A stretch of DNA of 64,000 nucleotides from Datisca glomerata. Taxonomy: Eukaryota; Streptophyta; Magnoliopsida; Cucurbitales; Datiscaceae. The position numbers were made by a program, and so were the translations under genes. Positions 5,211-64,000 of this stretch are shown here, piece by piece. How positions within the stretch are numbered: the first letter of the stretch is position 1; every line of letters starts with the position of its first letter. The notes beneath the pieces are model-generated. The model was given only the letters and a program-made list of their open reading frames with translations, had not been told where the DNA came from and ran no database searches. The stretch covers positions 253,921 through 317,920 of the forward strand of contig QANY01008047.1 in assembly GCA_003255025.1 (NCBI GenBank), read 5' to 3'.

Positions 5211-7111
5211 TGCTGGATCGGGTTTTATATTTTGAAGAAAAATTAATGAACCATGACTAGTTCATGGGTGGAATTTCAAAAAAATCCATACAAACGTTTA
5301 ATCTAATTAACACTAAACTAACCAATGAACGTGCATAATCATATAAATGTATCGAGAAAAGATTGAAACAATTTATACCTTTTTAATTAATGAAGAATTT
5401 TTTATTTGGCGAGATCCAACTTCTATTTCGCATTCTTCGTTCTTTGCAGAGCTTAGTAATTGATCTTTGCACCAACAACCACCCATTAGAATCAGAAGTA
5501 TATATATCTCAAGGATATCTATATGAATTGAGTGTGGGCTCTTAAAATAATTATTAGAAGAGAAAAATCCAATCCTTCCTTAATGTATTTCGGCTACAAC
5601 AAGCTTTTGGNNNNNNNNNNNNNNNNNNNNNNNNNGGGGGGGGGGGGAGATAAAAACTCTTTTTTAGCTCTGTCTAACACTTAAGTTAGCTTAGGGTTAG
5701 GTTTACAACCCTTTTATATTTAGTTATAAAATTTACCCATATACCCCTATAAGTCAAAATCCAAAATTCCCCATTCCATATACACTTATATGTGATTTTC
5801 ACTTCTTCCATGAAGTCGAAATTGTGTTCAAACTGATGAATTAAATTGATCCCAATTATTTTTCTTTTATTTACTAATTATTCAATAATTAAAAAATAAT
5901 AAAATAATTAATTTGAACATTAATTTTGGTTTTCACCAAAATACTGATGACACTCATCATCTTTGAGCTCAGGAAGTGTGCATTGGTCCAAATCATATTT
6001 TTGTCCAACTGATGTTGTTTCTCATTCGTATCCTTACGAGCTACTTCTGAGACTGAATGAACTCACATGAATAAAGCTATGAGATTCAAATACCCGACTA
6101 ATTTATCTACATAAATTTCTGACCTATTTAATCCCGACATTATACGACTCCACTATAGGTCTGATGCCGATAAAACTTGATTCATGCGCTCTACATATTT
6201 TATTGGTGCAAATAAACATTTATATTTCACGGTCCATAAACATTTATATTTCATAGTCCACAGAATATTTTATGATATTACCTTTCGTGAATATCAGTAA
6301 CAAGAGTGTGATCTAAAATTATCATTTTACCCCTCTAGTTGTTATTTCCTTAACTCTTTTATTGACGTTGAATAAGAAAGACATATCATTGAAGTGTTTC
6401 ATACAGATCACCATGTCTTATTCAATGAGTCACGTCATCGAGTACCAGGCTCTATTTATTTATTCACACACTCATCAATAAAACATAAGGTGATATTGTT
6501 GCTTTTACAATCTTACCGTGAATTTCATATATGTGAATCACGCAACTTCAACATAGTTGAATCTCGGTCCCAATAGCCGAGATATTGTCCAACATTTCAA
6601 ACTCACTCATTTAGCATATCAAAGATCGCAAGTAATTAAGTCAAGTTTCGTATTCACCTCAGGATTAAGATAATTATGAAAGTACCCTTAAGGTGTAATA
6701 ATTAAGTTTAGAGCTAGATAAGTGACTTTGCTCTAAACTATCTAGTTATTGGTCTATTAAACATATTTCATAGCATGTCTAGATCAACCGTTAGAATCTT
6801 TATTAACATGCCCCAAGATTGGCATTCTTCGGTTCAACCTAACATTCATAATCAGATTTGATTGCCTAGTTGACCTTAAGACTGTGAATAACATTCTGAA
6901 TTATATCATAAGAGTTTATTTGGAAGACCACTCAGTTTTTACTCTTCTTACGTTGATAATAGTTTCAGGACTTAAGTAAATTACAAACATACTTTAATTA
7001 AAAAAAAATTTTGATTTATTCATAAAATTCAGTAATACATAAGTGTCAAAGAAATAACTATTTACTCATAAAATAGTTATTACACCCTACTTTATGAACA
7101 TAATTCCAACA
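5211..7111. mobile_element. Solo LTR (family A) with 5-bp TSD CTAAC
   Basis: The insertion begins TGCTGG and ends CCAACA, giving TG...CA ends with a short imperfect inverted repeat. It is flanked on both sides by CTAAC (5206-5210 and 7112-7116). Joining the flanks restores the tandem-unit sequence. No pol motif is present in the 1.9 kb, so this is a solo LTR, probably left by LTR-LTR recombination. Caveat: an assembly gap lies inside it, so a longer element cannot be excluded. Confidence 0.8.
5611..5635. other. Assembly gap (25 N) next to a G homopolymer
   Basis: Twenty-five N are followed at once by twelve G (5636-5647). The G-run is probably a read-end or assembly artefact, and the true gap length is unknown. 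Confidence 0.95.
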
Positions 7112-11469: not shown

Positions 11470-12790
11470 GTCATCTCTCTGAACCTTGTATGTCACACAT
11501 GACCTTCAAAACACTTCGCACAGTACATGATGAGTGACTTATCCTTACCTGAAACTACTTTCAGATCAGTATAGAACTTTCTAAGCCATACCGGTTCTTT
11601 TACAGCTGTAGAAGTCTCTATATATTCGATTTCCACAATGAAATCTGCAATACTGGATTCTGGACTATAGCTCCTCCAACGAGGGTAAACACTTATCCAG
11701 ACGTTGACTTTTGACAGTACCTATCTAATTTTAAATTAGAAGTAGTATATCCAGTGGGGTTCAGGTCTCCACCTAAATAAACAAGCACATAATTTCTCAT
11801 TCTCCAAAGATACTTGAGAATGTGCTTTACTGCAATCCAATGTTCTAAACCAGGATTTGATTGATAACAACTGACAAATACTATCACATAACATATGTCA
11901 GGTCTCGTACACAACAGGGCATACATGAGACTCTCAACTACTGAAGCATAATGAACCTTTCTCATATCATCTTCCTCATGAGGTATCTCCGTACACTGCT
12001 ACTTGAAAAGGACAATTCCATGTCTGGTCGGTAACTGACCTTTCTTCAAATTTTCATAGAGAATCTTTCTAGCACCTTATCAACATAAGATGCCTAAGAA
12101 AGTTCTAAGAGTTTGTTATTCTCCCTTAAGATTTGGATGCCTAGAATATAGCTCACATCTCCCAAATCTTTCATTGGAATTTCTCAGCTATTCACTTCTT
12201 TACCGCCGACAAAGTTTCTACATGATTCCAAAGAGTAGAATATCGTCTACATAAAAAACTAATAAAACTACTATCTTATTTTTGATGTATTTATAAATAC
12301 AAACTTCGTCAATATTTTGTTCGAAGCCATATGATTTAATAATCTCATCAAAAGTAAGATTCCAAGATCTTGATGCTTGCTTTAATCCATAAATGGATTT
12401 AAGCAACTTGTATACTTTTTTATCTTGCCCATTTTTCACGAACCCTTCTAGTTGCATCATATAGATGTTTTCTTCAAGAGAGCCATTCATAAAAGATGTC
12501 TTGACATCCATTTGCCATATATCATAGTCTAAACTAGCGACTATGGGTAAAATAATGCGAATGGATTTTAGCATGGCAACGGCAGATCATGTCTCTTCGT
12601 AATCGACTCCATCCCTTTGTATATAGCCTTTGGCTACTAGCCATGCCTTGAAAGTCTCTACTTTCCCATTTGCACCTATTTTCTTCTTGAAGATCCATTT
12701 ACATCCTATAGGCCTGACATCTTTAGGTAGATCTACAAGTTCCCAGGCAGAATTAGAATACATAGAATTCATTTCTTGGTTCATGACATC
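11470..12790 (-). pseudogene. Copia-1 reverse transcriptase and RNase H remnant
   Basis: RT is recognised at 12784-12587 (IGCKWIFKKKIG, AWLVAKGYIQRDGVDYEET) and 12574-12218 (QMDVKTSFMNGSLEENIYMM, IYGLKQASRSW, and the catalytic motif FYVDDILL). RNase H and its C-terminal extension follow at 11965 to about 11474 (LMYALLCTRPDICY, YQSNPGLEHW, KHILKYL). The usual GYTDSD catalytic block reads GYTTSN here, so a key aspartate is lost. Frame breaks near 12580 and 12000 split the domains. A product would have been part of the retrotransposon polyprotein; this copy cannot be functional. Confidence 0.85.
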
Positions 12791-29345: not shown

Positions 29346-29629
29346 TAGTACAAGAAAACAATGCTATTGTGACATTTTTTGGTCTATCACGACAGTTCAA
29401 AAACCATCAGGATTGCCGCCGTCGCGGAAACAATTGCGACCATTTTCTTAACCGTCAGAGGAGACTAAAAATTCATCTATCGCGACGGTTATGAATCGTC
29501 GCCATAGACTTTCCATTGCGTCGGTTTCGCTGTACCGTCACAACGGTTTACAAATATTTTATTTATTACGGCAGTTTTAAAAAAAAATTATTCACATATA
29601 TTACTTTTGAGTGCAACTACATACTAATT

Positions 29630-30347
29630 GAAGCAGAAAGTATATCTCCAGCAAGCCAGTCATTTATATAAATTTCTTACTTGTTACTTTCACTTGATCA
29701 TTTAAGAGTGGAAAACTACAAAATAACAAAAATAGAGAAGAATTTTGACCAAAGCATACAAGTACAACTACACTTAAGACATGCTTTACAAAATGTTTCA
29801 AATAAAGCACAAAATTAAGCCAGAAAATATATGGAATTTCATGATGCATTTTCATGACATAAAAAGGAACTTGACAATTAATCAACACTAACTTCTAAAA
29901 ATACTCCTAAATCTAGAACAAATTGAGACCATGAAAAAATGGATAAGGAAAACAAGAACAATTAGGAAGAAGTAGCATAGTTATCCCAATACATAACCAC
30001 CATAAAAAAAATTATGACACAACTTGGTACAATGATAATCTGCTGACCTGAGCAGCATATCCAAAGGAAATAAAATTGAGACAATTTCCAAGAATGACAA
30101 ATACAATACATGTTGCATATGGAAGTTAACACAATCAGATTTAAAGATGACATCTACCATCTGTATTACAGCACATAAGCAATAGATTAAGAATCGTCTA
30201 TTGTATACCATGAGTTGATTATTAACATACAAAATTCATTGAGGACTTTCTACAAGAAGATTGTGAGCAAAGAAAACTAACATTTTCATTGAGGACTTTT
30301 AAAATCACAATTACAATAATTAGGGTCAGTTACAATGATTCTCTTAC
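29630..30347. other. Left interior of the Pack-CACTA, no gene identified
   Basis: AT-rich sequence. Some may be intron or downstream sequence captured with the G6PDH exon, but no further exon of that gene could be read. Confidence 0.4.
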
Positions 30348-30743
30348 CGTAAGTTTCAAGTAAATGGCTTCTGAAGGTTGTAGGCGTATCACAAGTTGGT
30401 TCCTCCCTTGCTTTTGACCTACATTGTGAGACCAAGTTCAAGTAATTTATAGTTCAGAGATTATGTCTATTATTGTTAAATTTAAAATTTGAATCAACAG
30501 AGAGGAAAGGAAAGCAAGATAAATTGATATTTCAAAGAATTAAAAGATAACATATTGTCCAAGAATAATCTCTTCATCATTGATTGGGATTATTGATTGA
30601 AGAACCCGAGCATAACAAATGAATGAACATATTGGTCACAAATGAATGAATACATATTATGGACAACAATAAAGAAAAACTTCATTAACATACAAAATTC
30701 ATTGACGACTTTCTACAAGAAGATTGTGAGCAAAGAAAACTAA
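30221..30743. repeat. 60-bp direct repeat flanking the captured G6PDH exon
   Basis: 30221-30280 and 30684-30743 are 60-bp copies with one mismatch (GAGG versus GACG). They flank a ~400-bp block containing the G6PDH exon. A partial third copy (CATTTTCATTGAGGACTTTT) lies at 30281-30300. Confidence 0.9.
30348..30418 (-). pseudogene. G6PD: Captured exon of cytosolic glucose-6-phosphate dehydrogenase
   Basis: G6PDH catalyses the first, NADP-reducing step of the oxidative pentose-phosphate pathway. The minus strand here encodes [20 protein letters not shown] and then KLT. This matches the well-conserved C-terminal-half segment of plant cytosolic G6PDH, family pattern [20 protein letters not shown]. 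The 71-bp exon is bounded by an acceptor (ATGTAG) and a donor (GTAAGAG) with AT-rich intron sequence on both sides. No neighbouring G6PDH exon was found, so a single internal exon with parts of two introns was captured. It has no stop, but it cannot give an enzyme. Confidence 0.8.
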
Positions 30744-30756
30744 TATATTTTCTTAC

Positions 30757-30889
30757 CTACGATGACCAACCAACCAGAGGTAAGGACCAATCTTTTGACC
30801 CCTAAGAACAACCCCATTTGAGGGAAAGAGGATGAAAATTGAGATGCACAGATAACATTTAGCGAAGGAGAATTAGGGCAAGAAGCCAT
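30757..30889 (-). pseudogene. Unidentified captured first exon, transit-peptide-like
   Basis: An ATG at 30889 opens a Ser-rich frame (MASCPNSPSLNVICASQFSS) and runs 44 codons to a good donor (GTAGGTAAGA, exon end 30757). A TATA-like GGTATAAATT lies about 55-60 bp upstream. The composition resembles a plastid targeting sequence. The source gene is not recognised. A one-base shift after residue ~24 gives another plausible frame, so the exon may be frameshifted. Confidence 0.4.
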
Positions 30890-31187
30890 TTATGGAGGGA
30901 AAGAGCCTTGTAGCTCAACCTAAATCCAAATGAATAATTTATACCCAAGAAGCCAGAAATTCTAAGAAAATTATGATTACATGACGGATATTGATTGTAG
31001 TCGTTAAGTAGCTAAAATGGATATTCCTGTATTAAAATAGAGCAGATGTATATCAAGAACAAGTTCCTTGAACAAACATTTCTTTGATGGGCATATGGTT
31101 TAAAGAAATGAACAAACAGAGCTCATAAGGAAAATAAAACATAAACAAAATTTTGAAAGCAAATATCAATTACACGTCTTACCTAAT

Positions 31188-31536
31188 CTAACTAGATTCA
31201 ACGATTATGTTGTTGATTAGAATGAAGATCAGTTTGACAAGGAATCCAACGAATCCCATCACGAGGAAACCGATTGCAATACGGAAGACGACCTTAGTGA
31301 ATTCTGTGCCATAAACACCACAAGAGCACCAAGAATCTCAGAAACCAAATCATGCAACAAAAGAACCAAATTTGGAGATCTGATACACAAATATCCAAAC
31401 AAGATAAGAAATAAATGAGAAGGGGGGTGGGAACGAACAAAATACCTTTACAATTAGGCTTGTGGCACCTCTAAACAAGGTGAACGATATCCTCGAACTC
31501 TCTGATAGGATCAAAGATTGAATCTAGGGCATCCAA
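31188..31536 (-). pseudogene. SEC61G: Captured near-full-length SEC61 gamma gene (two exons), decayed
   Basis: SEC61 gamma is a ~69-residue tail-anchored subunit of the ER protein-translocation channel. Exon 1 (31536-31446) reads LDALDSIFDPIREF, a stop two-thirds through the exon, then RCHKPNCK. Exon 2 (31303-31188) reads [20 protein letters not shown], then [15 protein letters not shown], and ends at a stop in the native place. The intron (31445-31304) has GT...AG ends and lies in phase 1, splitting the Glu codon that joins both halves. Total length is 68 codons. Defects are the start codon (TTG in place of ATG), one in-frame stop, and the loss of one residue near position 15. The transmembrane segment is largely preserved. 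Confidence 0.88.
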
Positions 31537-31561
31537 ATAAGTCTTGTGCAGCACCAACTTT

Positions 31562-31668
31562 ATTGTAACAAATTAAACAGACCCCATCTTTTATTTCCAC
31601 AAGTCTTCGGACTGATACAAACAAAAATATTATTATAACAAATTAAACAAACCTCATCTTTCAGCATA
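31562..31668 (-). repeat. 31-bp direct repeat, 76 bp apart, duplicating the SAR1 splice-donor region
   Basis: 31562-31592 and 31638-31668 match at most positions. The shared sequence spans the exon-1 end (AAAGATGAGG or AAAGATGGGG) and the intron start (TTTGTTTAATTTGTTA-like). Confidence 0.8.
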
Positions 31669-31781
31669 TGCAGCAGAGTGGTCTTTCTGGCGTTATCAAG
31701 CCCCAGAAACAAGATCTTAGCTTCTTTGTGTGAGAGGCCAAGCGATGCTAGGTCTCCATAGAACCATTCAACGAGAAACAT
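31653..31781 (-). pseudogene. SAR1: Captured exon 1 of a SAR1 GTPase
   Basis: SAR1 is the small GTPase that starts COPII coat assembly on the ER. The minus-strand ATG at 31781 encodes [16 protein letters not shown], then [20 protein letters not shown] and MLKDE. This matches the plant SAR1 N-terminus: the membrane-binding helix, the first beta strand and the P-loop. The P-loop carries GLDNARKTT where the family has GLDNAGKTT, so an essential Gly is Arg. The exon ends at a GT donor (31652). The exon-end and donor sequence is repeated at 31562-31592, offset by 76 bp. No later SAR1 exon (DLGG, NKID) is present. Confidence 0.9.
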
Positions 31782-32340
31782 CTTTCTCTTTCAAAATTTC
31801 AACCACGAAAATAAAATTTCTTTCACCTCAACTTCAATGAGAGAATTGTCAAATAGCCAGGATATCCTAGCGAGGGGAGAAAGGAGAGAAGGGAAACATA
31901 GGGGAAGAGATCGAAAAAGGGGGCATGGTATAGGATTTCAGACAACATATGAGAGAATGGAGAAAGGGGAAAAAAGAAAGGGTTTCTGATAGATCGAGAG
32001 GAGACTCTAGAGGGCTTGGCACGTATTTTGATGTTGCTTCAATTTCGGTTCGATTTTTCTTATTTTTTTGAGATGAGACATGGGGGAAGAGATCGACGGT
32101 TATGTTAAGACCGTAGCAAAAAAGTACCTCAATTGCGACGGTTATGTTAAAACCACATTAATAAATTAATATATTGCGAGTGTTTCTTCTAACAGTCGCC
32201 ATAGGTCATTATTTGACAATTTTCATAAAACTCTTCGCTTTTTCATGACAGTTTATACAACCGCCGTCATAAAACTCTCATGTTCGCTTTTCCGTGACAG
32301 TTTTTACAGCCGTTGCAATATGTCAATTTTTTTTGCAGTG

Positions 32341-62892: not shown

Positions 62893-64000
62893 TCATTTAT
62901 CAGTAGAAATTGAAGGTCGTCTGATCTTATTAGTTGTTAATTCCTCGAGAACTAGTTTGCTATGAGGTTTGTAATTTTGCATATAGTCGTGTTCATGGAA
63001 GGTTTCATTTGTCGACATATAAACCTTGTGATCCTGGTGAATATAAAAGTATCCACCTTTAGTCTCTAGAGTACAACCTACGAATATGCATACCTCAGAC
63101 CTTGCGTCTAACTTTCTTGTCTCAGGTCTAAAAACGTGAGCTGGAGACCCCCATATACGGAAATGACGCAAACTAGGTTTGGAACTATTCCATAACTCTA
63201 AAGATGTCTTGCTTACAGACTTAGAGGGCACTACATTCAAAATGTAAGTTGCTGTGTGTAGTACATATTCCCAAAATGTAAGTGACAGTGATGACTAGCT
63301 TTACATCGACCTAACCATATCTAATAACGTTCGGTTTCTCTTCTGTGCAACACCATTTTGCTGTGGTGTTCCAGGTGCTGTGAGTTGGAATAAGATTCCA
63401 CACTCTAGTAAATAATACTTGAATTCTAAATCCAAGTATTCACCCTCTCGATCGGATCGAAGGGTTTTCAATGATTTACCTAGTTGCTTTTCAGCTTCAG
63501 CTTTGAAGTCTTTCCATTAAGTATAACCATATCTTGAGTGATCGTCAATAAAAGTGACAAAATTCTCATACCTACCTCTAGTTTATACATTGATCGATCT
63601 ACACACATCACTATGTACTAGCTCAAGTGGTTCATTGGCTCTTTGGCCCTTTCCTGTTAAAGTTCTTTTGATCATTTTACCCTCTAGACATGATTCACAA
63701 ACATGAAGAGTTTTAACTTCTAGTTCTCTCAACGCACTATGATTTGTTAACCTGTTTAACCTATCTAGATTAATATGCCTCAACCTAAGATGCTAAAGAT
63801 ATGTGTTATTATTATCGTGAGAAACTCTTTTTCGTTTGTTTTTTTTAGGTTTTGCTACTTTAAATAATTCAGAATCATTTAACGCGCGTTCTGTCAGTTT
63901 AAGCATATATAGTCTGTTTATTAATAAAAGAAATTTTGAATAATTGTTCTTGCAAAAATGAAAGAGAAAAATTTCTCGAATCTAGGAATATAATAAACAT
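62893..64000 (-). pseudogene. Copia-2 integrase and pre-integrase remnant
   Basis: 63783-63583 encodes MRHINLDRLNRLTNHSAL, CESCLEGKMIKRTLTGKG and PLELVHSDVC, the zinc-binding end plus the first catalytic Asp. The core continues with breaks (TFIDDHSRYGY, KTLRSDREGEYLDLEFK, PGTPQQNGVAQKRNR), so all three catalytic blocks remain. 63240-62893 gives the C-terminal region (LELWNSSKPSLRHFRIWGSP, EVCIFVGCTLETKGGYFYIH). The upstream protease and gag lie at or beyond the window end. Confidence 0.82.

Follow-up and report, generated by a model that had tools for sequence, protein, structure and literature searches.

A Decayed, Transposase-Less CACTA Element of Datisca glomerata with Pieces of at Least Four Host Genes

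Introduction

Capture of several host genes by CACTA transposons is already documented in soybean, morning-glory and maize (PMC1947982, PMC5105172, PMC8903248, in the parts of these articles cited here). The soybean element Tgm-Express1 is described as 5.7 kb in length, with five host gene fragments that splicing brings together in chimeric RNAs (Zabala and Vodkin 2007, PMC1947982). In the Tpn1 elements of Ipomoea nil, the internal sequence has been replaced by host sequence while the ends were kept (PMC5105172), and multi-gene capture is documented most of all for the Pack-CACTAs of maize (PMC8903248).

Here we describe positions 29346-32340 of a 64,000-nucleotide stretch of Datisca glomerata DNA, the whole of which is called the window. 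We conclude, with a probability of about 0.93, that this interval is a Pack-TYPE transposon of the CACTA (En/Spm) superfamily, non-autonomous and now decayed, that no fewer than four host genes contributed pieces to it (SAR1, SEC61 gamma, a NIPA magnesium transporter and G6PDH), and that the composite was moved by a transposase from elsewhere in the genome. A first-pass annotation of the locus had called multi-gene capture of this density seldom described for CACTA elements; the precedents above contradict this, and the element is of a known kind that is already in print.

Results

The interval was compared with its own genome, a 678-Mb assembly of 1358 contigs in which the window lies on contig C761, and this revealed at least 60 matches (40 of the 107 first-look candidates were scored), the long matching blocks outside the window showing 85-91% identity to the query. 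The body of the interval recurs at 7 further loci, at least two of which are partial, and eight copies were compared: the window copy, L009 (contig C512), L010 (C890), L011 (C1008), L012 (C410), L013 (C481), L014 (C1122) and L015 (C862). L009 to L012 have the same body as the window copy, L013 and L014 have its left and right parts with a different middle, and L015, at 865 bp, is a short derivative that retains only the left part. For the captured host gene fragments, intact candidate parents lie on C438 (SEC61 gamma), C874 (SAR1), C433 (G6PDH) and C896 (NIPA), four contigs that all differ from each other and from that of the window. As judged by ORF length (longest stop-to-stop ORF, 96 amino acids), the element has no transposase gene of its own, and an Rfam search of the window gave no match. 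The window copy is one old member of a small transposase-less CACTA family, and its features are summarized in Table 1.

Table 1. Features of the element in the window copy, with the evidence for each
Feature	Position in window	Strand	Evidence
CACTA shell, left terminal and subterminal region	29346..29585		Alignment with L009-L012 and L015, whose left ends are of the CACTACAAGAAAACAATG type; repeats
Segment with short matches to contigs C737, C896 (420925), C504 and C967	29586..29930		Genome matches
NIPA-type Mg transporter fragment: exon 30048-30116, donor GT, flanking intron	29931..30194	-	88% to C896 (L018)
Copy a of the 66-bp direct repeat that flanks the G6PDH piece	30221..30286		Repeat comparison
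G6PDH fragment: exon ~30345-30422, intron, truncated upstream exon 30552-30602	30297..30634	-	C433 match; Pfam PF02781 on parental exons
66-bp direct repeat, copy b	30684..30749		95% to copy a
Segment with exon-like reading (KIGPYLWLVGHRR) and GTAAGA donor	30750..30906	-	Sequence reading
Further NIPA piece, from upstream of the C896 coding exons	30907..31067	-	94% to C896
SEC61 gamma pseudogene: exon 1 31447-31536 (no ATG, TAG), kept intron, exon 2 31191-31304, 3' flank	31120..31536	-	84% to intact gene on C438 (L016)
32-bp SAR1 intron stretch, repeated	31560..31591, second copy 31630-31661		Single matching stretch in SAR1 parent
SAR1 piece: 5' flank, exon 1 (31653-31781), donor GT, start of intron 1	31587..31875	-	92% to C874 (L017)
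CACTA shell, right subterminal region and terminus	31876..32340		Common to family copies and further CACTA-ended loci L026 and L027

Well-preserved copies start with CACTACAAGAAAACAATG and finish with ATATGTCAATTTTCTTGTAGTG. In the window copy, the left terminus CACTACAAG is mutated to TAGTACAAG, and the right terminus reads CAGTG in place of TAGTG. The left end was recognisable in 8/8 copies, in mutated form in the window copy (TAGTA), L013 and L014; the right end could be placed in seven, decayed in L014, and no right end was found for L010, which has the left end only. CACTA...TAGTG was present at both ends in L009, L011 and L012, the left motif only in L010 and L015, and the right motif only in L013. 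Perfect 3-bp duplications, read by eye, border four of the seven copies in which both ends could be located (L009, TCT; L011, AGC; L012, TTT; L015, TAA), and the chance of at least four in seven is ~1e-5, assuming a match rate of 1 in 40. The other three, namely the window copy (flanks TCT/GAT), L013 and L014, have mutated ends and no matching 3-bp duplication. The CACTA-type ends proposed at first pass hold for the sister copies L009, L011 and L012, but the window copy lacks them in intact form. A left-end pattern search of the genome allowing at most one mismatch gave 5 places, 2 of them in the family of the window element. Repeated subterminal motifs bound by a TnpA-type protein are a trait of CACTA (En/Spm) elements, and repeats such as GCGACGGTTATG (families D3, D5, D6 and D11) near both ends of the window element are candidates for such motifs.

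The right shell (about window 31876-32067) also stands beside other sequence in at least 8 other CACTA-like loci, three of which were fetched (L023, L026 and L027), and in L023 and L027 it is bordered by exon-like readings. At L026:661-990, plus strand, a Transpos_assoc domain (PF13963, 56.2 bits) is a sign of a nearby CACTA transposase gene, and this domain apparently belongs to another element than the window family. Elsewhere in the window, at 12218-12586 and 62893-63294 on the minus strand, are remains of Copia-type retrotransposons with RVT_2 and SH3_retrovirus domains.

Both PDB and Pfam name the rightmost captured piece as SAR1/Arf family, and its copies lie at K2P distances of 0.068-0.089 from the parent on C874. 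SAR1 exon 1 and the two SEC61 gamma exons lie on the minus strand, as stated at first pass. The repeated 32-bp SAR1 intron stretch sits at the joint between the SAR1 and SEC61 gamma pieces. At the parental locus, SAR1 first exons stand in tandem on the minus strand (L017:3067-3195 and 5902-6030), ~2.8 kb apart. A second repeat family, of ~1.3 kb or more, contains part of SAR1 exon 1 together with intron 1, within other limits than the piece in the window element (L024, L025 and L057-L062, on contigs C927, C62, C28, C742, C142, C312, C701 and C1284); its body is common to 8/8 fetched loci, and a right end like TTTGTAGTAGTG was found in 7/8. At least 14 loci matching about window 31570-31749 were set aside as candidate members of the window family; the 8 that were fetched are of this other repeat family.

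The SEC61 gamma parent on C438 is an intact gene, at K2P distances of 0.059-0.135 from the copies, the window copy being the most diverged (0.135), and a second SEC61 gamma gene on C487 is more distant from the copies. The intron is kept with its GT and AG and aligns to the parent at ~85% over 99 bp; therefore, capture occurred at the DNA level, as had been proposed. The first-pass annotation had also linked SAR1 and SEC61 gamma through their action at the ER, and this is best read as coincidence, since NIPA and G6PDH do not fit.

Two pieces match C896 in the same order and orientation. A composite of the exons at that locus (L018) scored 51.5 bits for PF05653 (Mg_trans_NIPA) against a cut-off of 26.2, and a shorter exon set only 20.6. 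For the 5' piece, the copies stand at K2P distances of 0.052-0.109 from C896. In the intron flanks of exon 2, a paralogue on C408 (L028) is nearer to the copies than C896 (106 sites, K2P 0.049-0.136), but the stretch with the NIPA exon is absent from C408, and for the second piece a match was found in C896 alone. The second match in C896 borders on an N and a poly-C run, which makes the spacing of 695 bp between its two pieces an uncertain figure. A NIPA-type magnesium transporter is the fourth captured gene, one missed at first pass, with C896 as the candidate donor and C408 as a competing one. The exon that the first-pass annotation had left unnamed (~30750-30790) lies within 30750-30906, for which own-genome searches gave no source outside the window family.

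For G6PDH, 30297-30552 and 30551-30634 match the parent on C433 (L019), and 325 bp of the parent are absent between them. This gap begins inside an exon and finishes inside an intron, and it is therefore a deletion and not the result of splicing. The parent lies at K2P distances of 0.106-0.158 from the copies. The minus-strand exon reported earlier was recovered, but it is not the only one, as a truncated second exon is present (Table 1). Homology of the piece to C1028 continues to 30654. We considered whether the G6PDH pieces of C1028 and the window family may have a non-parental joint (GAACATATTGGTAACAAATGAAT) in common; the same pattern would result if the C433 gene itself had suffered a deletion. 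At C1028:887192-897400 (L022 plus L056), a G6PDH fragment is found among three CACTA left ends, and a 4.4-kb CACTA element is nested there with the duplication ATC/ATC.

The G6PDH piece separates the two NIPA pieces, and the 66-bp direct repeat stands on either side of it. Both halves of the repeat are present in 4/5 copies of the G6PDH-bearing type, one half being lost in L011; neither half was found in L013-L015. Between NIPA and SEC61 gamma, L013 carries a different sequence of ~1.4 kb, and we take its exon-like readings to be from a DEK-type chromatin protein; a Pfam search of these peptide readings gave no family. The last ~50 bases before SEC61 gamma in L014 are, by eye, the same as in L013, and the rest of its middle is presumably a retroelement terminal repeat. 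The shell and the outer pieces thus remained in place across copies whose middles are not alike. Copy-parent distances gave no ordering of the captures.

The strongest competing account of how the pieces came together, to which we give a little less than an even chance, is the fusion of two neighbouring CACTA insertions, in which the outer ends and everything between them are mobilised and the newest host DNA is central (the model of Catoni et al., as told in PMC8903248 and given again in PMC13317346). G6PDH inside NIPA, and another middle between the same flanking parts in L013 and L014, are as this model predicts in the account of PMC8903248. Against it, the sequence between captured pieces showed no remnant of an inner terminus, copy-parent distances fail to rank the pieces by depth, and the 66-bp repeat at G6PDH and the 32-bp SAR1 repeat look, from general knowledge of the mechanism, more like break repair with fill-in. 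Direct repeats around an inserted patch fit the repair of a staggered double-strand break. The differing middles fit both fusion and break repair; the direct repeats favour repair, and the CACTA cluster with the nested element at C1028 favours fusion. We tentatively put forward, while rating it rather unlikely as a whole, a shell with an exchangeable middle, in which break repair, and not neighbour fusion, would have put G6PDH into an older NIPA piece and left the 66-bp repeat, the whole middle would have been swapped for a DEK-like gene in sister copies, and all dated pieces would read in the sense direction to the right end. If this were true, the family would separate two models of Pack-CACTA capture.

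Lesions in the captured genes are shared across the family. In 7/7 copies with SEC61 gamma exon 1 (window, L009-L014), the ATG has a different first base at the capture junction, one codon (three bases) is missing, and the same lysine codon reads as a stop (TAG in five copies, TAA in L012 and L013). The claim that the SEC61 gamma gene is whole fails on these lesions, and an intact gene is ruled out by the lost ATG and the stop. In the SAR1 piece, likewise in 7/7 copies, the P-loop glycine codon now reads AGA or AAA, and GAC has replaced a valine codon. These results indicated that the pieces were broken before the family spread, and that one already broken progenitor was amplified. Copy-copy distances (SAR1, 0.063-0.103; SEC61 gamma, 0.053-0.190, with the short rows of L013 and L014 included) are close to the copy-parent distances, as would be expected in a star-like spread soon after capture.

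The same lesions bear on whether the element is a functional chimeric gene under selection, giving a SAR1-SEC61 gamma-type product or an RNA that regulates the parents, which we regard as very improbable. The identified pieces all lie on one strand in sense order, the SAR1, SEC61 gamma and NIPA donors and the SEC61 gamma acceptor are kept, the reading frame of the SAR1 exon is open in the window copy, and the pieces in Tgm-Express1 are spliced into chimeric RNAs (PMC1947982). Nevertheless, a common orientation of all four captured genes has a chance of 1 in 8, the SEC61 gamma lesions and the P-loop change are found in every copy with these pieces, and several other copies have stops or shifts in SAR1.

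Gene fragments without a transposase are typical also of Helitrons, Pack-MULEs and retrocopies, but an origin in one of these classes is the least probable reading of all, given the CACTA...TAGTG ends and the 3-bp duplications in four copies; for a retrocopy, the mRNA structure is not retained, and retroposition is ruled out by the kept SEC61 gamma intron and by the G6PDH gap that runs from exon into intron.

Discussion

A transposase-less CACTA-type element with pieces of at least three host genes had been proposed at first pass, to be abandoned if the pieces and introns matched no parental locus or if the ends were absent from other copies. Both checks were run and the proposal survived them: parental loci lie on other contigs, and ends and target-site duplications are common to sister copies. 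In the course of events that we envisage, a CACTA shell, consisting of the ends and subterminal repeats, would have taken up DNA from SAR1, SEC61 gamma, NIPA and G6PDH genes, possibly in steps through double-strand-break repair, with G6PDH arriving inside an older NIPA piece. Mobilisation would have occurred in trans by a CACTA transposase made elsewhere in the genome, and the captured cargo is probably now without protein function.

The family allows the order of capture to be read from nesting and shows one broken progenitor behind all copies, and the two proposed routes of gene capture predict different things for it. Annotation pipelines may call its SEC61 gamma and SAR1 pieces genes.

Compared with the described systems, as far as the cited parts of the articles present them, the element is like Tgm-Express1 in being a non-autonomous CACTA transposon that carries fragments of several unrelated host genes with introns kept; Tgm-Express1, however, is young, lies within an F3H intron and was shown to be spliced, whereas the window element is 3 kb long, older and decayed (PMC1947982). 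With Tpn1 the family shares conserved terminal regions, captured internal sequence and a transposase supplied elsewhere, the last probable for the window family; Tpn1 elements number in the hundreds (339 annotated) and are still mutagenic, in contrast to a family of at least eight copies, each of them mutated (PMC5105172). The likeness to the Pack-CACTAs of Arabidopsis and maize extends to CACTACAA ends, 3-bp duplications, coding DNA from several loci and the newest DNA inside, and the window family differs from them in the 66-bp direct repeat that frames one captured piece and in the lesions that reveal its one broken progenitor (PMC8903248).
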